NCBI GenBank assembly: GCA_021814005.1
Contig: JAKAJC010000001.1
Span: forward strand, 69,379 to 133,378
Source: Microcaldota archaeon
Lineage (GTDB): Archaea; Micrarchaeota; Micrarchaeia; Anstonellales; Anstonellaceae
Direction of reading: 5' to 3'
Length of the DNA stretch: 64,000 nucleotides
In this document: positions 51,831 through 64,000 of the stretch, in pieces
Position numbering within the stretch: position 1 is the first letter of the stretch
Layout: the number at the start of each line of letters is the position of its first letter
Notes under the pieces: model-generated
Database searches by the model: none
Told to the model about the DNA's origin: nothing
Seen by the model: the letters and a program-made list of their open reading frames with translations, nothing else
Made by a program: the position numbers and the translations under genes

Positions 51831-52136
51831 ATGAGCAAAGCACGAATCAAACTTATCGGCAAAAACCCAAAAGAGCTGGACGACGTCTGCCATCAGATTG
51901 AGGAGATAGCCAAGACCACGGGAGTGGATTTGGCCGGCCCCATCTACATGCCTACAAGACGCCTCAAGATTTCGACCAGGCGCACGCCCTGCGGCGACGG
52001 CTCTGACACATACGAGCACTGGGAAATGCGCATCCACAAGCGCATGATTGACGTGGCCGGAGATGAGAGAACTCTTCGCCAGATTATGCGCGTCAAGGTG
52101 CCCGACACGGTGCACGTGAAGATTTCGATTGAGTAA
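51831..52136 (+). CDS. rpsJ: Ribosomal protein uS10
   Basis: KARIKLIGKNPKELDDVCHQI...GPIYMPTRRLKISTRRTPCGDGSDTYEHWEMRIHKR. Confidence 0.96.
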   Translation: MSKARIKLIGKNPKELDDVCHQIEEIAKTTGVDLAGPIYMPTRRLKISTRRTPCGDGSDTYEHWEMRIHKRMIDVAGDERTLRQIMRVKVPDTVHVKISIE

Positions 52137-52326: not shown

Positions 52327-53559
52327 GTGAAACCGGCATCTCCGCACGCTGTCGTCGAGGCGGACATTGAAAAGCAGATCGCGGGACATCTCTCCCACGC
52401 CCAGCTTACGCCGGGCCAGAGGGCGGCCCTCAAGTCCTTCCGCCTTGAATTTTGCGTCAACCGCAACCAGAAGTTGGCCACCCAGGAATCCTATTTGCGC
52501 TACATCTGCTTTCTAGGCCGCCACGTGAAAAAGGAATTCCAGGACATGACGAAGGACGACATAATCGACTATATTTCCAGCCTGCAGGGCAAGAGCGAGA
52601 GCCTAAAGGACTGGGCCAAGCTCGCGATTAAGATGTTCTTCCGCTGGCAGCGCACGGGGGCCATAACCCGCGGCAACCCCTACCCCGACATCGTGTCGTG
52701 GATCCGCGTGACGCAGCCCAAGACCAAGAAAGTGCGCGTCGAGGACTGCATTTCCGCCGACGAATACCGGCTCATGCTCAACGCCTGCAAGAACCAGCGC
52801 GATAGGGCGCTTGTCGCCCTTCTCTACGACAGCGGCGCAAGGATTAGCGAGATATGCAACATCCAGCTCAAGGACGTGCACATGGAGGGCGAGATGCCCT
52901 TCGTGACGTTCGCCCAGAGCAAGACCACCGAGGGCACGGGCCGGCCCTGCTACCTCATCAGCTCGATTGCCGAGATTGCGGCCTGGTACAAGATGCACCC
53001 CGACAAGGACAACTCCAACGCCTTCCTCTTCTGCAACATCAAGCTGCGCACCAAGCTGCCATTCATCACGCCCAAGATGGCGAACCAGACCCTCCAGCGC
53101 ATCGGCATCAACGCCGGCATAAGAAAACACATCCACCCCCACCTTTTCCGCCATTCCTCGGCCACGAACGACCGGCGCAGCGGCATGAACGACCAGTTTA
53201 TGCAAATCAAGTATGGATGGACCGAGAATTCCCGCATGGCGCAGCGCTACGCCCACATCACCGCCGAGGACGTGGCGCGCTTCCAGATGAAGCAGCGCGG
53301 GCAGGCTGTCAAGAAGGACGAAACACCGGAATTCAAGGAATGCCCCCGCTGCCACGCCCAGATTCCCTTTGCCGCCAAGGAGTGCGAAAACTGCCTCATG
53401 CCCCTCGATGCGAAGCTTCGGATGGAAAAGGCACTTGAACCGACGAAGATAAACCAGCTTATGGAGCAGATGGCGATGATGCAGGCAGAGCTTGTGAAAT
53501 TGCAGAAGGCAGCCGCCCGAGGGACGATTGCGAAGGCGAAAAGCAGGGCGGGAGTATGA
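52327..53559 (+). CDS. Tyrosine recombinase/integrase with C-terminal zinc ribbon
   Basis: LYDSGARISEICNIQLKDV; HPHLFRHSSATN; MAQRYAHI; CPRCHAQIPFAAKECENC. Confidence 0.9.
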   Translation: MKPASPHAVVEADIEKQIAGHLSHAQLTPGQRAALKSFRLEFCVNRNQKLATQESYLRYICFLGRHVKKEFQDMTKDDIIDYISSLQGKSESLKDWAKLAIKMFFRWQRTGAITRGNPYPDIVSWIRVTQPKTKKVRVEDCISADEYRLMLNACKNQRDRALVALLYDSGARISEICNIQLKDVHMEGEMPFVTFAQSKTTEGTGRPCYLISSIAEIAAWYKMHPDKDNSNAFLFCNIKLRTKLPFITPKMANQTLQRIGINAGIRKHIHPHLFRHSSATNDRRSGMNDQFMQIKYGWTENSRMAQRYAHITAEDVARFQMKQRGQAVKKDETPEFKECPRCHAQIPFAAKECENCLMPLDAKLRMEKALEPTKINQLMEQMAMMQAELVKLQKAAARGTIAKAKSRAGV

Positions 53560-53598
53560 TGCCGATACAAACAAAAACATCGTATGCTTGGGTGTAAT

Positions 53599-54921
53599 AT
53601 GGACGAGAGCGAAATCAAGGGGCTTGTCGAAACCGGCGAGGGCTACACGCTTGACTTCAAGGAGTCCCTTCCCAACGACTTAGGACGGCACCTCTGCGCC
53701 TTCACCAACGCCTCCGGCGGCAAAATCATCATCGGTGTGCGCGACAACGGCACGCCTTCCGGTTATTCTCCGAACAATGCCGACGAGGCGCGCATCAACT
53801 CCTATGCCCGCAACCTCGACCCTCCCACTCGCGTCCGCGTGGAGCGAGTCGGCCCGTTCGCCGTCATCCACATTCCCGAGGGACCCGACAAGCCCTATTC
53901 CAGCGGCGGGAATTTCTACCTGCGCATCGGTTCTATGTCCCAGCAGCTTCGGCGCGACGAGATACGCGAGTTCTTCCAAAAGGAGAGGCTGCTGCGCTTC
54001 GATGAGAAGCCCAACACCTCGTTTGATTTCCGCTCCGATTTCGACCAGTCCCTCTTCAAGCAATACCTCTCCAGAGCCGGTATCACACCCCTGCCTGACC
54101 AGAAGGACACCTTGCGCAACCTCGATCTCCTAGACGGGCCATATCTGCGCAATGCCGGAGTGCTGCTCTTCACCCCAAGCGTTACCCGTTTCTTCACCAG
54201 CGCCACCCTCCTGTGCGTCCTCTACCAAGGCAACGATAAGGTCACCATCCTGGACCGCAAGGAGTTCCGCGGCGACCTCCTCTCCAACCACGAGAACGCG
54301 CTCACCTATATCCGCTCGAAACTCAACACCAACCTCATTATCAAGGCCGAGCGCACCAACAAGCTTGAACTGCCCGAAGAGGCCCTGCGAGAGGCATTGG
54401 TGAACGCCCTTGCCCACCGCGACTATTTCTCCCCCGGCCATGTGCAGGTGGATATCTATCTCGACCGAGTGGACATCTCCAACCCCGGCGGCCTGGTCTC
54501 GGGCTTGCCGCGCAAGGAGCTGGGTAAGCGCAGTATGCCCCGCAACCCGCTTCTCATGGACCTTTTGCAGCGCATCGACAAGGTGGAGCGGGCCGGCTCG
54601 GGCATCAAGCGCATCCGCGACGCCATGAAGAAGATCGGGCTCAAGCCCCGCTTTGACATCAACGAGGGCTTCTTCTCGGTGGTGTTCCCAAGAAGTACCC
54701 AGACCGCACCCGAAAGTTCCCAGAAAGGTTCCCAGAAGAGTTCCCAGAAGATCCTCGACCTGATCCAAAACAACCCAGGCATAACCATCGAAGAGCTGGC
54801 TTCTAAGATTGGCATCAGCGACCGGGCGGTGAAAAAGCAACTCTCGATTCTGAAGGCACGCGGGAGCCTGAAACGCATCGGGCCGGACAGGGGCGGGCAT
54901 TGGGAGATAGTGCAGGAGTGA
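53599..54921 (+). CDS. AlbA_2/Schlafen-domain ATP-binding regulator with C-terminal wHTH
   Basis: EGYTLDFKESLPNDLGRHLCAFTNASGGKIIIGVRDNG; REALVNALAHRDY; GSGIKRIRDAM; C-terminal HTH. Confidence 0.88.
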   Translation: MDESEIKGLVETGEGYTLDFKESLPNDLGRHLCAFTNASGGKIIIGVRDNGTPSGYSPNNADEARINSYARNLDPPTRVRVERVGPFAVIHIPEGPDKPYSSGGNFYLRIGSMSQQLRRDEIREFFQKERLLRFDEKPNTSFDFRSDFDQSLFKQYLSRAGITPLPDQKDTLRNLDLLDGPYLRNAGVLLFTPSVTRFFTSATLLCVLYQGNDKVTILDRKEFRGDLLSNHENALTYIRSKLNTNLIIKAERTNKLELPEEALREALVNALAHRDYFSPGHVQVDIYLDRVDISNPGGLVSGLPRKELGKRSMPRNPLLMDLLQRIDKVERAGSGIKRIRDAMKKIGLKPRFDINEGFFSVVFPRSTQTAPESSQKGSQKSSQKILDLIQNNPGITIEELASKIGISDRAVKKQLSILKARGSLKRIGPDRGGHWEIVQE

Positions 54922-55181: not shown

Positions 55182-57647
55182 ATGCCTAAAACAGGAAATA
55201 TCAGGCTTTTCGCACCTTCTGAAAAAAAGAGATGGCAAAAATACCTGATAAACATCCAAAAAATATGCAAGGGGCCAGATTGGGAGAAAAAATACTGCAA
55301 GGAATTGAAAAAACACCTCACGGGTTTGTCTCAAACTCAGTTGCAATCATTCAAACAAAAACTCGGTTATCCTAATACAGCTCAATTTGACGATATCCTT
55401 AGGGACAAGAAAAAAGCCATAACTGCTTATTGCTATTGGGTATTCTCTAGAAATTATCGTTCCAGCATAAGCAGATTCCTCAATCTGACGGGGCAAACCG
55501 GGAAAGCTCTTCAAAAAACAGCATTCTTGGGGATTCTAGGATTATCTGACGCCGAACTGGAAGGAATCGTTCTCTTCCAGATATGGAGGAAAACGGCAAT
55601 CTTCGAACGGGACTATTCGTTGCGTGAAGTTACGAATGAACAGATTACGCAAGTGGATAAGAAAGTAAAGTGGCTAGCAGGAACTTTATCGAAGGGAGCG
55701 CATAGGCCTTCCGAAACCGATGATAAAGTTTATCACTTCAAGCAAAAGGGAGTCTATCGGGATTATCGGATCTACTGGTTTCTCAGACAAAAAAGCGATG
55801 AAGAAGAGCCGTCGTGGCCAAACAATCAACGGCAAAAACGGTTTTCGAGCAAAATATTAGCCATCAACCAAACAGGGAAGAAAATACATCTCGTTGTGCA
55901 TAATTCTAAAGAGAGGAAAATTTTTCTTAGATTCCTTCAACGCACGATTAAGCTTGAATTGATGTCAACCCAGAGCGAAACGCCTGTGAATAAAGCACAA
56001 CTACAGAAGCTTTTCGTTCCAGATGAAGCTGACGACACTCTGCCCGTAATCAGCGTGTCCTACAAATATACTAATTTACCTGGAAATCCAAAGCTTATCA
56101 TCCAAGATCGCGCTGGAAAAAACCCTGTAAAGGGCGCGGTCAAAAGACTTACTGAAAACAAAGACATAACCCCAGAAGAAATATCCAACATATCTGCATT
56201 TACTCTTCTTTTCTCAGGTCAGCCAGTCAAAGTCAGAGTTTTCGAGGGTAGATTTGGATACTACAAAATGCAAATCCCTGACAGAAGTCTGGCCTATCAG
56301 GATCGCGAAGGATTAATCTCACAATTTAAACAAAAAACAAACATTCCGATCAACCAATACTTTGAATTTGAAGGTAAACCCATCGAAGTCAAGGAAGCGA
56401 TAAATTCGCTTCTAAACACCCAACTCGTTTCAATAAGCGATGATCCGCCCATATACCGGAAGGTCCTTGAAGTCTTATACCAGATGGGCCTCCTCCATGC
56501 GCCCGAAGAGGAAAACAAGCGATACTGCGTATACAATGGATGCGTGAAGCAATATGCCAATACTTGGCAGAAAGGCACGTGTTCGGAATGCGGGGGGCAA
56601 TTGCACCTATTCGGAGAATACTTCGCAGTGAAGACAGATAAGGCAAAGATTCGAGAACTTATTTCAGACTCACTTATTTTAGAAGGATATTCGGTTGTGC
56701 ACGGAACACGGAAATTCAATAAGAGGAAAACAGACGTTATCGAAGTATATACGCCAAAAGGCAGCGTTGTTGTAGTGCCAGTCAATTCACAAAAAATCGA
56801 CTCAAACCTACTAGAATACTTGAAATTCAACGACGCAGCCGTAGTATTCGCACCATATCCTTACACGAGCGAAACTGACCAAATTCGAGGATATGGGCAT
56901 GGCGTTGTTACTGTGTCTGACCTTATCTACAATAAATTAACCAATTCTAATCAAAAGTTGTTTACGGCTGAAATTGATTCTTGCTTAAATGCAACGCAAA
57001 CCCGTATCGAAAACAACTATCGAAACGCATTGGCCCGGCTTGAACGCACAGGGGATTACGACTTCCATAAATTCGAGGAAGACACATTCTCGCTAGTCCA
57101 CTTCCTTCTGCCGACTTCTCAACGCCTAGGGGATCAGTTCATCGGCAAGCGTGTCCCGGATGGAATAGCGGCAATACCTCTTTCTTCATCCGAGAGATTC
57201 TGCGTCTCATGGGATAGCAAATACTCCACAGCGCAATACGCATTCAGCGAAAAACCTGCGAAATCCGCATACTACATAAAACGGCTGCAACCACTACCAG
57301 TAGTAAAGAATCTAGGTGGACTTGGATCCTTTATCTACATATCCAACAATCTGCCAGAAAAAAGATTCAAGAAATTCGCTAAACGAGTGAAGAGACGGGC
57401 TAGATGGCCAGGTAGAATCATCCTGTTATCTTCTGCACAATTAATGGAATTATGCAAGCACAAAGCATCCGTACAGCAAGTGCTTGCCGCATCTCCCGAG
57501 ATGAATGAAAGTTACTACAAAAAGATAGCTGGATTATTCTCTAAACGCTACCGAAAAATATACGCTATCTCCCCGGCCGAGATTCAGGCAATCACATCTA
57601 GCCAATATACGACACCTGCACTGAGTATAAGCCGCGCAGAAGTCTGA
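55182..57647 (+). CDS. Large protein of unknown family with zinc ribbon and C-terminal PD-(D/E)XK-like motif
   Basis: CVYNGC...CSECGG; GKRVPDGIAAIPLSSSERFCVSWDSKYS (PDG...DSK arrangement as in FokI-like nucleases). Confidence 0.6.
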   Translation: MPKTGNIRLFAPSEKKRWQKYLINIQKICKGPDWEKKYCKELKKHLTGLSQTQLQSFKQKLGYPNTAQFDDILRDKKKAITAYCYWVFSRNYRSSISRFLNLTGQTGKALQKTAFLGILGLSDAELEGIVLFQIWRKTAIFERDYSLREVTNEQITQVDKKVKWLAGTLSKGAHRPSETDDKVYHFKQKGVYRDYRIYWFLRQKSDEEEPSWPNNQRQKRFSSKILAINQTGKKIHLVVHNSKERKIFLRFLQRTIKLELMSTQSETPVNKAQLQKLFVPDEADDTLPVISVSYKYTNLPGNPKLIIQDRAGKNPVKGAVKRLTENKDITPEEISNISAFTLLFSGQPVKVRVFEGRFGYYKMQIPDRSLAYQDREGLISQFKQKTNIPINQYFEFEGKPIEVKEAINSLLNTQLVSISDDPPIYRKVLEVLYQMGLLHAPEEENKRYCVYNGCVKQYANTWQKGTCSECGGQLHLFGEYFAVKTDKAKIRELISDSLILEGYSVVHGTRKFNKRKTDVIEVYTPKGSVVVVPVNSQKIDSNLLEYLKFNDAAVVFAPYPYTSETDQIRGYGHGVVTVSDLIYNKLTNSNQKLFTAEIDSCLNATQTRIENNYRNALARLERTGDYDFHKFEEDTFSLVHFLLPTSQRLGDQFIGKRVPDGIAAIPLSSSERFCVSWDSKYSTAQYAFSEKPAKSAYYIKRLQPLPVVKNLGGLGSFIYISNNLPEKRFKKFAKRVKRRARWPGRIILLSSAQLMELCKHKASVQQVLAASPEMNESYYKKIAGLFSKRYRKIYAISPAEIQAITSSQYTTPALSISRAEV

Positions 57648-57677: not shown

Positions 57678-60431
57678 ATGGAACCAGAGCAGAAAGCCCG
57701 CCGTAAAATTGATAAGATGCTTGAAGCGGCAGGCTGGGTCATCCAAGATTACAAGGATATGGATTTGGGCGCCAGTCTCGGCGTCGTTGTCCGTGAGTAT
57801 CCGCTGAAAGAAGGCCGTGCGGATTATCTCCTCTTTGTGGATCGAAACGTGGTCGGTGTCCTCGAAGCTAAACCTGAAGGCACCACGCTAAGCGTTGTGG
57901 AAGAGCAATCCGAAGGCTATCTCAATAATACACCCGAGAACTTGCCAAACGTCCATTGGCCTCCTCCTTTCGCCTATGAGTCAACAGGGGTAGAAACCCG
58001 CTTTAGGGACAACCGCGATCCAAAACCTCGCTCCCGAAACCTTTTTGCGTTCCACAAGCCTGAAACGCTCTTGGAATGGGTGGAGCAAACTGAAACCCTC
58101 CGCTCTCGCTTGAAGAAATTCCCTCCTCTTCCAAAAGGCAACCTCCGCCAATGCCAGTTCGAGGCCATCAACAAGCTGGAGGAATCTTTAGGGAAGGACA
58201 GGCCAAAAGCCCTAATCCAAATGGCCACGGGAAGCGGCAAGACTTATACTGCCGTAAGTTCCATTTATCGCCTAATCAAATTCGGCAAGGCCAAGCGCGT
58301 TCTCTTCCTCGTGGACCGCAACAATCTGGCCCGCCAAACCCTGCGGGAATTCCAGCAATACGTTCCTCCCGACTCAAACAAGCACTTTACGGACATCTAT
58401 AATGTCCAACACCTCAAATCCAACAAAATCGACCCCGTGGCTAAAGTTTGCATCACTACCATCCAGCGTCTTTATGCCATCCTAAGCGGAAAAGAGATTG
58501 ACGAAGAGATAGAAGAGCATTCGATGTTCGAAAGCGGCGCTTCCGCCAGGACGACCCCCATAACGGTGGATTACAACCCAGCCGTTCCCATCGAAACCTT
58601 TGACTTCATCATCAGCGACGAATGCCACCGCTCCATCTACAATCTCTGGCGGCAGGTTCTGGAATACTACGATTCCTACCTCATCGGCCTTACTGCCACC
58701 CCGTCCTTGCAGACATTGGGCTTCTTCAACAACAATCTGGTGATGGAATACAACCATGAGAAAGCCGTGGCCGATCAAGTCAATGTGCAGCTTGCCGGAG
58801 TCTATCGAATCGAAACCAAGATTTCCAAGCATGGGGATAAGGTAAAGGCTGGGTTCTATGTGGATGTGCGTGACAAATTCACCCGCGAGCGACGCATGGA
58901 GCTTCTGGACAAGGATTTCTCCTATGAGGCCGCCAAGCTCGATCGCTCCGTAGTTTCCCCAAGCCAGCTTCGGACAGTTATCCGAGAATTCAAGAACAAG
59001 CTGAAAACCGAGATATTCCCCGGCCGCGAGCACGTTCCCAAGACACTCGTTTTCACCAAGAACGATGCCCATGCCGAAGACGTGGTGAATATCATCCGCG
59101 AGGAATTCGGAGAGGGCAACGACTTCTGTAAGAAGATTACCTACCGCTCCAACGAGAAGCCCGAGGACATACTTCAAGAGTTCCGAAACTCCTACAACCC
59201 CCGTATCGCCGTCACGGTGGACATGGTGGCCACAGGCACCGACATTAAGCCCCTCGAATGCCTTCTCTTCCTTCGAGATGTCAATTCCAGGCTCTATTTT
59301 GAGCAAATGAAGGGACGTGGCACGCGCACCATCTCCAAAGACGATATGGCTTCGGTAACTCCCGACGCGGGCGACAAGACCTCATTCATTATCGTGGATG
59401 CAGTCGGCGTATGTGAGAAGGATAAAACTGACACCAAGCCACTGGACCGCAAGCCAACCGTTGCCTTCGAGAAATTGGTTTTGGATGTCGCCAAGGGCAT
59501 CCGAGACGAGGACACCATAAGCTCCATAGCCGGCCGTTTGGTCAAGCTGGACCGCAAGATGGAAGGGCCGGAGAAGCAGGAGTTCGTTCGGTTAAGTGGC
59601 GGCAAAGGCGTTTCTGAAGTGGCCGCCCAGCTCCTCGCCGCCAATAGCATCGACAATCAGATGGTAGCCGCCAAAGCCATGTTCAAAACAGATAAGCCGG
59701 ACGAGGCGCAGCTCGCCAAAGCTCGAAAGGAGCTGATAACCAAAGCCTGCCTGCCGCTCGACAAACCTGCACTTCGCAATTACCTCATCGATGTTAAGCG
59801 TGAGAAATACCAGATTATCGACACAGTAAGCCAGGACGTGGTGCTCCGCGCCTCCTTTGATGCTTCGGCTAAGGACAAGGCGCAGGCTATTGTGGGCAAA
59901 TTCAAGGAATTCATCGAAAAGAACAAGAACGAAGTCTCGGCCCTTCAAATCATCTATGGCCGCCCCTATGCTCAGCGGCATTTGACTTACAAACAGATCA
60001 AGGAGCTTGCCGAAGCCATCGCTCGGCCCCCATATTACCTTAATTCAGAAGTCGTCTGGAATGCCTACAAGCAACTCGACAAAAGCCGCGTCCATGATGC
60101 GGGCCCCAAGAGGCTTCTTACAGACATTATCTCGCTCGTTCGTTACACTGTAGGGGAGAGCAATTCGCTCGTGCCCTATACTCAACTGGTGGATTCCCGC
60201 TTCAAAGAGTGGCTTGCAGAGCAGAAAAAAGCAGGCCAGACATACAATGCCGCCCAGATGGAATGGCTTGAGATGATAAAGGCGCACATCGCCGCCTCAG
60301 CCAGCATCGAGATAGACGATTTCGAATATGCCCCATTCGTTGGAAAAGGCGGGGCAGTAAAAGCCAGCAAAGTATTCGGCTCACGCCTCGATTCCATCCT
60401 GAGCGAGCTTAACGAGGCGTTGCCGATATGA
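57678..60431 (+). CDS. hsdR: Type I restriction enzyme R subunit
   Basis: ADYLLFVDRNVVGVLEAK nuclease motif; MATGSGKTYTA; ISDECHRS; helicase C-terminal motifs. Confidence 0.95.
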   Translation: MEPEQKARRKIDKMLEAAGWVIQDYKDMDLGASLGVVVREYPLKEGRADYLLFVDRNVVGVLEAKPEGTTLSVVEEQSEGYLNNTPENLPNVHWPPPFAYESTGVETRFRDNRDPKPRSRNLFAFHKPETLLEWVEQTETLRSRLKKFPPLPKGNLRQCQFEAINKLEESLGKDRPKALIQMATGSGKTYTAVSSIYRLIKFGKAKRVLFLVDRNNLARQTLREFQQYVPPDSNKHFTDIYNVQHLKSNKIDPVAKVCITTIQRLYAILSGKEIDEEIEEHSMFESGASARTTPITVDYNPAVPIETFDFIISDECHRSIYNLWRQVLEYYDSYLIGLTATPSLQTLGFFNNNLVMEYNHEKAVADQVNVQLAGVYRIETKISKHGDKVKAGFYVDVRDKFTRERRMELLDKDFSYEAAKLDRSVVSPSQLRTVIREFKNKLKTEIFPGREHVPKTLVFTKNDAHAEDVVNIIREEFGEGNDFCKKITYRSNEKPEDILQEFRNSYNPRIAVTVDMVATGTDIKPLECLLFLRDVNSRLYFEQMKGRGTRTISKDDMASVTPDAGDKTSFIIVDAVGVCEKDKTDTKPLDRKPTVAFEKLVLDVAKGIRDEDTISSIAGRLVKLDRKMEGPEKQEFVRLSGGKGVSEVAAQLLAANSIDNQMVAAKAMFKTDKPDEAQLAKARKELITKACLPLDKPALRNYLIDVKREKYQIIDTVSQDVVLRASFDASAKDKAQAIVGKFKEFIEKNKNEVSALQIIYGRPYAQRHLTYKQIKELAEAIARPPYYLNSEVVWNAYKQLDKSRVHDAGPKRLLTDIISLVRYTVGESNSLVPYTQLVDSRFKEWLAEQKKAGQTYNAAQMEWLEMIKAHIAASASIEIDDFEYAPFVGKGGAVKASKVFGSRLDSILSELNEALPI

Positions 60432-61135
60432 TCACTTTTCTTAATGGTCTAATTGGACGCTTTCACAAGTACTGGAAGATTCTTTCCAGCAATGCGCTTG
60501 AGTTCATTGCATATTTTGTCTTAGGATTAATTTTCCCATTAGTGGTGTTTTACTTCCTAAGAGATTGGACTCTACCCACTGTCCTCTTTTCGGTCTTCAC
60601 TGGCTTTGGCCTTGGCCGGTTCTTCCAAGAGAAAGAGAAATTGGAGAGATGGCTAGAAGATTTGCGTGTTTTGAAATCCCAAATTGAAGTCTGGACAAAA
60701 GGCTTCAAGACATTGCGCTCTTTTCAAACGATGGAGAACTTTCAATGGGGTCCGCAACTTAGTTGGCTTGATGGGCAATTGAATGGGTATTGGCTAGGAG
60801 ACAAAAAGACATCTGTTTCAAAGACAAGTTTGGAGCCTCATTATTTCGAGAGAGTTGAAATCAGCCGCATAATGGGCGGAATTCAATATATCCCGATGAA
60901 AAACGCCAAATTCCTGCTCGGTTCTTTGAGGTCCATCAATCACAAGATAGACCACCTCAATTTAATCATCCAAATCCTGTATTTACGCAATGATTTAACG
61001 AACGACGAAATGAAGAAAATCGGCTCTGATCTCTGCGGCAGCCCGCTGGCAGTTTGCGAAACGCTGAAAGATGAACTTCCACTAGCGGAAAAGAAGCTTG
61101 CCGAGATTTTAGAAGGTTATGGATACATTGAATAG
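60428..61135 (+). CDS. Membrane-anchored protein of unknown function within the type I RM operon
   Basis: Start overlaps the hsdR stop (ATGA); two N-terminal TM segments, soluble C-terminal domain. Confidence 0.75.
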   Translation: MITFLNGLIGRFHKYWKILSSNALEFIAYFVLGLIFPLVVFYFLRDWTLPTVLFSVFTGFGLGRFFQEKEKLERWLEDLRVLKSQIEVWTKGFKTLRSFQTMENFQWGPQLSWLDGQLNGYWLGDKKTSVSKTSLEPHYFERVEISRIMGGIQYIPMKNAKFLLGSLRSINHKIDHLNLIIQILYLRNDLTNDEMKKIGSDLCGSPLAVCETLKDELPLAEKKLAEILEGYGYIE

Positions 61136-61147
61136 TGATGGGAGAAC

Positions 61148-62563
61148 ATGACTGATAACGAAAAATTGCCGAAAGGGTGGGTTCTTGCCCCTCTCGGAGA
61201 ACTTGCGGAGTATATCAATGGGCGCGCATTCAAACCTACCGAATGGGAGAGAGAAGGAAAACCGATTCTTCGCATTCAAAATCTAACAGGTTCAACCGAT
61301 GAAATCAATCGCTACTCTAAACCTATCGAAGATAAATATCTCATTAAAGACGGACAACTGCTTATCTCTTGGTCTGCAACCCTTGGGGCATTCATATATC
61401 GTGGGGAAGATGCTGTTCTCAACCAGCATATCTTCAAAGTAATTCCATATGTCGATAAGAAGTATTTGTATCATTTAACCAACGCGTATATTGGTTCTCT
61501 AAAATCAAAGGTTCACGGATCGGGGATGCAGCATATTACTAAAGGTTTATTTGATACCTCTCAAGTCCCCCTTGCGCCATCGAACGAACAACTCCGCATA
61601 GTCTCAAAAATTGAAGAACTTGTCTCAGAACTGGACGCAGGTGTTTCATCTCTCCATAAAGCTAAATGCCAAATTAAGATCTATCGCCAATCAGTGCTCA
61701 AATCTGCATTTGATGGAAAGCTTACTGCAAAATGGCGGGAGAAAAACAAAAACAAAATTGAATCAGTAGAAAAAATACTGGCGCGAATAAAGGAAGAACG
61801 GAAGTTACGACTTGGGAAGAGACACAAAGACGTGTTGCCGTTTGATGCTTCAGAGCTACCCAAATTACCGAAGGAGTGGGTTTGGTGTTCGATGAGTGAG
61901 GCATGCGGCGTAATTTCTAACGGAAACACTCCTGAACCATCAAAAATGACTAGGGATTCTGGGGATATTCCGTTCATAAAAGTATACAATCTTACAAAAG
62001 ATGGCCGATTGGATTTCACTGTTAAGCCTACATTTATTGACCGAGAAACGCATAGAAAAGAATTAGCGAAATCGATCACTTACCCTGGCGATATCCTCAT
62101 CAATATCGTCGGACCCCCCTTGGGGAAAGTATCGCTAGTCCCAGATACGTATCCAGAATGGAATACTAATCAGGCAGTTGTCTTGTATCGAGCATCAAAG
62201 AACTTAGAAACACGATTCTTGCTGTTCTATCTATTGTCTAATGATTTGATTCGTTTTCTCACTAAAAAATCAAAAGCCACTGCGGGGCAGTATAATGTTC
62301 AGTTAAGTACTTGTAGAAGCGCACCGCTTCCGTTTGTACCTATCCTCGAACAAAAAGAGATTGTAAGACAGATAGATATCAAGATGAGTGCAATTGAAAG
62401 GACGGAGCAACTTATTGACAAGAATCTCACTATGGCTGAGAATATGCGCCAAAGCATTCTCAAAACCGCATTTGAAGGCAAGCTCGCCCCCCAAGATCCA
62501 AAAGATGAACCAGCGGAAAAACTGCTCGAACGAATTCGAGCTGAAAAATCCAAGAAGAGGTAA
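61148..62563 (+). CDS. hsdS: Type I restriction enzyme specificity subunit
   Basis: Two TRD-like halves starting LPKGWVLAPLGELAEYINGRAF and LPKEWVWCSMSEACGVISNGNTP. Confidence 0.95.
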   Translation: MTDNEKLPKGWVLAPLGELAEYINGRAFKPTEWEREGKPILRIQNLTGSTDEINRYSKPIEDKYLIKDGQLLISWSATLGAFIYRGEDAVLNQHIFKVIPYVDKKYLYHLTNAYIGSLKSKVHGSGMQHITKGLFDTSQVPLAPSNEQLRIVSKIEELVSELDAGVSSLHKAKCQIKIYRQSVLKSAFDGKLTAKWREKNKNKIESVEKILARIKEERKLRLGKRHKDVLPFDASELPKLPKEWVWCSMSEACGVISNGNTPEPSKMTRDSGDIPFIKVYNLTKDGRLDFTVKPTFIDRETHRKELAKSITYPGDILINIVGPPLGKVSLVPDTYPEWNTNQAVVLYRASKNLETRFLLFYLLSNDLIRFLTKKSKATAGQYNVQLSTCRSAPLPFVPILEQKEIVRQIDIKMSAIERTEQLIDKNLTMAENMRQSILKTAFEGKLAPQDPKDEPAEKLLERIRAEKSKKR

Positions 62564-62567
62564 TTTT

Positions 62568-64000
62568 ATGCCTGAATCAAGCTCCATTGTTCAAAAAGTC
62601 TGGAATTACTGCACGGTTCTTCGGGACGATGGTGTTGGTTATGGGGATTATGTCGAGCAACTAACATATCTCATCTTCCTCAAAATGGCACACGAGCAGA
62701 CAAAACCTCCATACAATAAGCCGTCCACGATACCCAAGGGATACGATTGGCTCTCTTTAACCTCAAAAGATGGCGAAGCGTTGGAAGGCCATTATTTGGC
62801 TACCCTAACCGCTTTAGGAAAGGAAAAGGGGATGCTAGGTATCATTTTTGCCAAAGCTCAATCCAAAATCCAAGACCCAGCCAAACTCAAACGCTTAATC
62901 AGCCTGATTGATGATGAGGTCTGGCTCGGATTAGATGTTGATGTAAAGGGGGAAATCTACGAGGGATTGCTCCAAAAGAACGCGGAGGACACCAAGAGCG
63001 GCGCAGGCCAATATTTCACGCCAAGACCATTAATCAAAACTATGGTCGAAGTCATGCAGCCAAAGCCAAATATGAAAATCTGCGACCCGGCCAGCGGAAC
63101 TGGCGGATTCCTTACCTTGACTTACGATTACATAGTCAAGCACAACAATTTAGACAAAGACCAGAAGAAATTCCTCAAGAACGATGCGTTGAGAGGCTAC
63201 GATATTGTCCCTCAAGTCGCTAGGCTCTGCGCCATGAACCTTTTTCTCCACGGTATCGGCTCCGAGCAGTCGCCCATTCAGGTTAGGGATTCTTTGGCCT
63301 CTGACGATGGCGAACGGTTTGATATGGTCTTGACCAATCCGCCTTTTGGGAAGAAGAGCAGTATCACAATCGTAAATGAAGAAGGGAAATCGGACAAGGA
63401 TTCGGTATCATATGAACGCCCTGACTTCTGGACCACCACTTCCAACAAGCAACTGAACTTTGTCCAGCACATCAAGACCATCCTAAAAGTCGGGGGAAGT
63501 GCGGCAGTCGTAGTCCCGGACAACGTATTATTCGAAGGGGGCGCAGGAGAAACCATCCGCAAGAACCTGCTAAAGGACTTCGAGGTTCATACGCTGCTGA
63601 GGCTGCCAACTGGTCTATTCTATGCTCAGGGAGTCAAAGCCAACGTAATCTTCTTTGATAAGAAACAAGCCTCTGAGAGCGCGTGGACGAAAGACCTCTG
63701 GATCTACGATTTGAGGACAAACAAGCATTTCACGCTCAAGGAAAGCTCGATGGGCATGAAGGACTTGGAAGACTTCGTTAAGTGCTACAACCCACAGAAC
63801 CGGCACCAAAGGAAGGAAACCGAGCGTTTCAAGCGCTTCAAATACGAAGATTTGATTAAGCGGGATAAGACCAGCTTGGATATTTTCTGGCTCAAGGATG
63901 ACAGCCTGACGGATTCGGATAACCTGCCGGAGCCGAGCTTAATCGCCGAAGAGATAGTCGAGAACTTGGAAGAGGCATTGGAAAGCTTTAGAGAGATCGA
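62568..64000 (+). CDS. hsdM: Type I restriction enzyme methylase subunit (runs off window end)
   Basis: My translation MPESSSIVQKVWNYCTVLRDDGVGYGDYVEQLTYLIFLKM...SGAGQYFTPRPLI...DPASGTGGFL...VLTNPPFGKKSS; not in the ORF track because no stop is reached. Confidence 0.95.
   Translation, partial: MPESSSIVQKVWNYCTVLRDDGVGYGDYVEQLTYLIFLKMAHEQTKPPYNKPSTIPKGYDWLSLTSKDGEALEGHYLATLTALGKEKGMLGIIFAKAQSKIQDPAKLKRLISLIDDEVWLGLDVDVKGEIYEGLLQKNAEDTKSGAGQYFTPRPLIKTMVEVMQPKPNMKICDPASGTGGFLTLTYDYIVKHNNLDKDQKKFLKNDALRGYDIVPQVARLCAMNLFLHGIGSEQSPIQVRDSLASDDGERFDMVLTNPPFGKKSSITIVNEEGKSDKDSVSYERPDFWTTTSNKQLNFVQHIKTILKVGGSAAVVVPDNVLFEGGAGETIRKNLLKDFEVHTLLRLPTGLFYAQGVKANVIFFDKKQASESAWTKDLWIYDLRTNKHFTLKESSMGMKDLEDFVKCYNPQNRHQRKETERFKRFKYEDLIKRDKTSLDIFWLKDDSLTDSDNLPEPSLIAEEIVENLEEALESFREI

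Follow-up and report, generated by a model that had tools for sequence, protein, structure and literature searches.

A predicted FokI-type PD-(D/E)XK domain in an unnamed two-module protein family of archaeal defence islands

The 64,000-nucleotide stretch of archaeal DNA analyzed here, called the window hereafter, encodes just upstream of hsdR an 821-aa protein that is, with a probability we put at about 80%, a metal-dependent endonuclease of an unnamed two-module archaeal defence family. A likely sensing N-module would be joined in this family to a C-module made of a zinc ribbon, a middle domain and a FokI-type cleavage domain. As far as sequence comparison can tell, the existence of the family, its two separable modules, the conserved active site, the relation to FokI, the defence setting with changing partners and the mobility are all established.

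Genomic context of the candidate nuclease gene

The open reading frame was confirmed in the window with an ATG start, and it lies between an AlbA_2 gene and hsdR with a tyrosine integrase gene upstream, at the coordinates where the earlier note had placed it. The features of the region are the following.

51831-52136: rpsJ (S10)
52327-53559, + strand: tyrosine integrase at the island edge, directly 3' of rpsJ (library match)
53584-54921, + strand: AlbA_2 (Schlafen-type) / RecG-C-like / winged-helix regulator, upstream of the nuclease ORF (Pfam)
55182-57647, + strand: 821-aa ORF with N-module, zinc ribbon, middle domain and predicted FokI-type nuclease (full-length homology to archaeal proteins of 786-861 aa)
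55182-56411, + strand: N-module, approximately residues 1-410 (separate gene in Haloferax larsenii and at a second divergent locus)
56526-56591, + strand: zinc ribbon C449-x4-C454…C467-x2-C470 (four Cys invariant in 25 sequences; weak Pfam and PDB zinc-ribbon matches)
56604-56951, + strand: middle domain, approximately residues 475-590 (no detectable likeness to the nuclease domain in profile comparison)
56973-57506, + strand: predicted FokI-type PD-(D/E)XK nuclease domain, approximately residues 598-775 (family conservation and profile comparison)
57075-57077, + strand: predicted catalytic E632 (invariant in the family alignment)
57159-57161, + strand: predicted catalytic D660 (D or E across the family)
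57213-57221, + strand: predicted catalytic D678-S-K680 (D and K invariant)
57678-60431, + strand: hsdR (Pfam ResIII, HSDR_N and EcoEI_R_C)
60428-61135, + strand: 235-aa ORF with hydrophobic segments, between hsdR and hsdS (no family match)
61148-62563, + strand: hsdS (Pfam Methylase_S)
62568-64000, + strand: hsdM, extending about 25 bp past the window end

The nuclease ORF starts 261 bp after the end of the AlbA_2 gene and ends 30 bp before the start of hsdR. It is followed on the same strand by hsdR, the 235-aa ORF, hsdS and hsdM, with gaps after hsdR of -4, 12 and 4 bp, and because these genes share one strand and are separated by small gaps the nuclease ORF is apparently the first gene of an operon. 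The earlier proposal that it is AT-richer than the flanking genes holds for the AlbA_2 gene and hsdR (59.1% and 52.3% G+C, against 42.6% for the nuclease ORF) but not for hsdS and the 235-aa ORF, whose G+C is equal to its own (41.7% and 41.9%). We also observed that the hydrophobic ORF at 60428-61135, which lies inside the RM operon, matches no family.

The contig continues beyond hsdM with genes that we read, from their sequence rather than from library matches, as encoding a primase-like protein, a VirB4/HerA-like ATPase and conjugation-like, multi-pass membrane proteins (L091:8582-13735 on contig C2, approximately 5-10 kb past the hsdM end). The island thus has the appearance of an integrative element that entered the chromosome 3' of rpsJ and carries the nuclease gene and the RM operon as cargo. 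It may be composite, since the AlbA_2 gene has a high G+C like the integrase gene and unlike the RM operon. Two overlapping genes directly 3' of hsdM on the same strand (L091:3410-6275, encoding 212 aa and 746 aa) are possible further cargo. S10 was found in 7 of the 8 relatives searched, and no island gene was present in the downstream stretches read in five of them; likewise hsdR had no full-length match in 19 relatives from the family of the window organism.

Relatives in haloarchaea and other Halobacteriota

Searches of Pfam, NCBIfam, PADLOC and, by sequence, PDB returned only weak zinc-ribbon or chance matches, none of which names the family; a weak Pfam match to EcoEI_R_C (E 0.054) was below the cut-off and was discarded. 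No relative was found among 302 other genomes of the phylum of the window organism, where weak matches were discarded because they span only the zinc ribbon or other short stretches, and none was found in phages. Scans of viral and genome contigs for exact peptides also gave no relative, because the family is too divergent for this approach. A tblastn search of plasmids produced one weak match, to Haloferax larsenii pHl5678-1. There the N-terminal part corresponds to one ORF (390 aa) and the C-terminal part to the one next to it (444 aa), and direct comparison gave E values of 7e-10 and 5e-11, respectively. When a phylum that we take to be Halobacteriota, since it contains the Halobacteria, was searched with a profile of the C-terminal part, full-length relatives encoded by single genes were identified, with open frames of 823-855 aa. 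Relatives, either full-length or encoded by two genes, are present in both Halobacteria and methanogen-like Halobacteriota at 16-21% identity.

One full-length Halobacteriota relative led to nine haloarchaeal plasmid records, and a profile built from eleven members detected the gene in 16 of 250 sampled Halobacteria genomes (approximately 6%); in a second class, 2 of 127 genomes carried it. Cultured carriers include Haloferax, Halorubrum and Natrinema. The plasmid copies listed are all annotated "hypothetical protein"; neither Pfam nor NCBIfam gave a name to any of 17 members, and PADLOC 2.0.0 did not match the window protein, the L033 protein or Haloferax hA and hB. In a phylogenetic tree the family falls into several well-supported and deeply separated clades, with the window protein on a long branch whose placement is unsure. 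Transfer is recent and frequent, as identical proteins in three different host lineages indicate.

Conserved residues and modules

The four cysteines C449, C454, C467 and C470 and the VPDG (658-661)…WDSK (677-680) segments, in which the earlier note had seen a Cys4 cluster and a FokI-like PD-(D/E)XK motif, were found exactly at the positions given there. The bare PD…DxK motif alone is weak evidence and not significant, as PD-x(10-30)-[DE]xK was present in 1168 out of 5000 shuffles of the 821-aa protein (23%). It becomes significant only because it is conserved across the family. We aligned 25 sequences (23 of them different) from several divergent clades with 16-21% identity to the window protein, and the only invariant residues were C449, C454, C467, C470, F631, E632, G650, D678 and K680, while position 660 was D or E. 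These nine residues and D/E660 correspond to a predicted four-Cys zinc ribbon and a predicted complete E-D/E-DxK active site of a PD-(D/E)XK nuclease, and the superfamily pattern E…(P)D/E…(D/E)xK is present in the 25 sequences (E632, D/E660, D678 and K680). The C-terminal domain would be expected to adopt a restriction-endonuclease-like fold. AlphaFold modelling of the window nuclease domain alone, from the single sequence, gave a pLDDT of 41.

The protein is built from two separable modules, N (approximately residues 1-410) and C (zinc ribbon, middle domain and nuclease), which in Haloferax larsenii are encoded by two overlapping genes. A similar arrangement was found at locus L071, which carries a full-length gene together with a second, divergent copy split into overlapping genes (L071:2679-5443, G1004:C10) for an N-module of 416 aa (E 8e-7) and a C-module of 511 aa (E 3e-28); this copy has LEFPDG…WDAKYS, nearly as in the window protein. 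The N-module had no convincing match in Pfam, NCBIfam or PDB. The idea that the middle domain is a decayed second nuclease domain was rejected, since profile comparison showed no similarity.

Relation to the FokI cleavage domain

The profile of residues 598-775 was compared with a six-sequence profile of the FokI cleavage family, consisting of a query sequence that we take to be that of FokI and five homologues from plasmid records. The two profiles aligned over 123 columns with a score of 35.4 (P 8.5e-5, HH probability 60%), and the E, PDG and DxK positions were in register, as were the (V/I)S strand and the final strand-helix. In control comparisons with 200 column-shuffled FokI profiles the mean score was 12.6 and the maximum 19.6. 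The P value stayed between 3.7e-5 and 1e-3 when each clade was left out in turn. The match rests on the pooled profile: single clades alone were unconvincing (best P 0.004), and a two-sequence FokI comparison was not significant, significance being reached only with the 25-sequence profile.

Specificity was indicated by the comparison of the nuclease-domain profile with McrC, hsdR, type III Res, a PDDEXK_1 protein, hsdM, EF1A and integrase, all of which gave P >= 0.18, and neither the N-module nor the middle domain showed FokI similarity in profile comparison. Among the Pfam matches listed for the 17 members, and for the isolated domains, there was no curated family for the FokI cleavage domain, and a sequence search of PDB with the nuclease domain gave no significant match to a solved structure. 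With catalytic positions conserved at 16-21% identity and a specific profile match, the FokI-like PD-(D/E)XK domain suggested in the earlier note is upheld, and the C-terminal domain can be assigned by profile comparison as a predicted FokI-type PD-(D/E)XK domain.

Defence islands with changing partners

The gene lies beside a type I RM system in the window, and its neighbours differ from one relative to the next. They comprise a type III RM system (L030), Gabija (L032), a BREX with brxE and a reverse-transcriptase gene (L040), and C5-methyltransferase, UvrD and PDDEXK genes with an integrase (L002). In three loci (L034, L035 and L068) the gene is located between pglZ and pglX of BREX-5, beside an OLD-family gene (BREX-5 is annotated in L034; pglX is not listed in L035). 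DUF262 and DUF1156 genes are found in L037, L038 and L041, and DUF499 in L037 and L041. A recurrent same-strand McrB-McrC-X cassette, X being the nuclease gene, is present in haloarchaea (L037-L039 and L061-L066) with a gap of 58 bp before X where measured, and hosts from distant lineages share an identical X. In L031 and L036 the gene has no clear known defence system as a neighbour.

To quantify this context, 95 deduplicated neighbour proteins, predicted with a simple ORF caller, were compared by PADLOC (E<=1e-25) with 127 proteins from control regions elsewhere in the same genomes, often on the same plasmid-size contigs. The neighbours matched 158 PADLOC models and the controls 5; these figures are models rather than systems, as one protein may match several. 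This confirms that the homologues sit in defence islands. The earlier note had regarded the protein as a nuclease or defence effector travelling with type I RM. The nuclease and defence part of that view stands; the gene has no special tie to type I RM, since other genomes show type III RM, BREX, McrBC or Gabija instead. HsdR is not an obligate partner because partners change between genomes, and for the same reason the gene behaves as an independent module. No conserved cognate methyltransferase accompanies it; neighbours vary, and several loci have no adjacent methyltransferase.

Possible mode of action

In FokI the recognition part is N-terminal and delivers the cleavage domain. By analogy, the N-module (approximately residues 1-410) would be the likely recognition or sensing part, and either it or the zinc ribbon may recognise invading DNA or an infection signal, upon which the C-terminal domain, steered by one of the two, would cut DNA. 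The target could also be RNA or the host's own DNA.

Given that no methyltransferase regularly accompanies the gene, an enzyme that cut unmodified host DNA all the time would kill its host, which disfavours an ordinary constitutive restriction enzyme and favours dependence on modification or conditional activation. Our tentative first choice is a modification-dependent, type IV-like enzyme, and the clade linked to McrBC slightly tips the balance toward it. An enzyme switched on by infection ranks next and is a possible reading, whereas shielding by a neighbouring methyltransferase seems rather unlikely. We give an even chance to a broader proposal, in which the family is an undescribed innate defence system found mainly in archaea. 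A single self-sufficient enzyme, made of a novel recognition module and a zinc-ribbon/FokI-type nuclease module, would here restrict foreign DNA with no methyltransferase of its own; it would have passed between distant archaea as the cargo of many other defence systems and would form the recurrent McrB-McrC-X cassette of haloarchaea.

Alternative explanations

It is very improbable that the motif is coincidental and the C-terminal domain no nuclease. The frequency of the bare motif among shuffles (23%) and the lack of a library match would allow this, but E632, D678 and K680 make up a third of the nine positions that never vary, and the match to the FokI profile is specific and persists whichever clade is omitted. 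A location as the first gene of the hsdR-orf-hsdS-hsdM operon, on the same strand and 30 bp before hsdR, with a G+C like that of hsdS, is what one would expect if the protein were accessory to the type I RM enzyme next door, as an additional nuclease or specificity-related subunit of HsdRSM. We consider such a role quite improbable, as the relatives accompany other systems (type III RM, BREX, McrBC or Gabija).

Many copies are plasmid-borne or lie close to integrases, and the window copy is on an integrative element with VirB4-like genes downstream, so that the protein might serve the mobile element itself in plasmid or integrative-element competition, homing or recombination and be near defence genes only as a co-traveller. 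This is improbable given the few PADLOC models in controls of the same genomes (5, against 158 beside the gene) and the fixed McrBC-X order that recurs in several hosts; moreover, interference with competing elements would still count as defence. The abortive-infection effector, a promiscuous DNA/RNA nuclease that would stay dormant until its N-module detects infection or the breakdown of a neighbouring system and would then degrade host nucleic acid, is a sub-case of the nuclease with a defence role that we prefer, and differs in target and trigger. It agrees with the lack of a conserved methyltransferase partner and with the position of the gene inside or beside other systems (within BREX-5, beside Gabija), but no sensor domain was recognised in the N-module and the facts fit direct restriction equally. 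We find this sub-case somewhat unlikely.

Significance and comparison with known systems

The preferred reading, a metal-dependent endonuclease with a defence role, suggests a mobile, stand-alone antiviral nuclease that current defence-gene catalogues have missed. The earlier note was right in substance; the claim rests on conservation across the family rather than on the motif. Archaeal immune systems are poorly covered by catalogues, and a family found in approximately 6% of sampled Halobacteria is yet annotated "hypothetical protein". According to one survey, nearly one third of archaeal genomes have nothing beyond CRISPR and RM (PMC12988326). We found no literature on the family or its locus tags, and a term search of the main texts of recent surveys on archaeal immunity (PMC12988326), BREX (PMC12839542), YprA helicases (PMC12458937), McrBC (PMC11090510) and archaeal dark matter (PMC4158269) gave no mention of it; an entry without a name in the survey supplements is possible. 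For a FokI-type nuclease that travels between archaeal defence islands with no methyltransferase of its own, the question arises how self is discriminated from non-self. The N-module could be a novel domain for recognising DNA or a signal, naturally paired with a FokI-type cutter. The family is directly testable because cultured haloarchaea carry the gene.

The family shares a predicted C-terminal PD-(D/E)XK cleavage domain with FokI and its lactobacillal homologues. The recognition part is N-terminal in FokI and would likewise be so in the archaeal proteins, which differ by an extra zinc ribbon and by an N-module of 410 aa that is not that of FokI; no FokI recognition-domain model was among the Pfam matches listed (E 0.5) for the 17 members. 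Annotated FokI-like plasmid genes are flanked by a Dam-type methyltransferase, whereas the archaeal genes are without a cognate one. The family therefore shows neither of the two marks of type IIS RM, a FokI-type recognition domain (among the matches listed for 17 members) and a conserved cognate methyltransferase.

With single-gene candidate defence nucleases of the PDC/HEC type it shares a single ORF, a predicted PD-(D/E)XK domain and a location in defence islands, but the PD-(D/E)XK candidates in the survey of archaeal immunity are described as ATPase fusions and the archaeal family, which has no recognisable ATPase domain, is set apart by this description (PMC12988326). The Halorubrum and Natrinema genes are placed between pglZ and pglX of BREX type 5, beside an OLD-family gene; the gene is however not a core component, as it is missing from BREX elsewhere and present without BREX. 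From McrBC and type IV systems the family differs by having no recognisable GTPase and a nuclease domain unlike McrC (P 0.46), and it resembles them in that no methyltransferase is obligate and in that the gene of one haloarchaeal clade comes third, behind those for McrB and McrC. The components are thus of known kinds, a FokI-type nuclease, a zinc ribbon and a solitary defence gene; their combination and the N-module are new.
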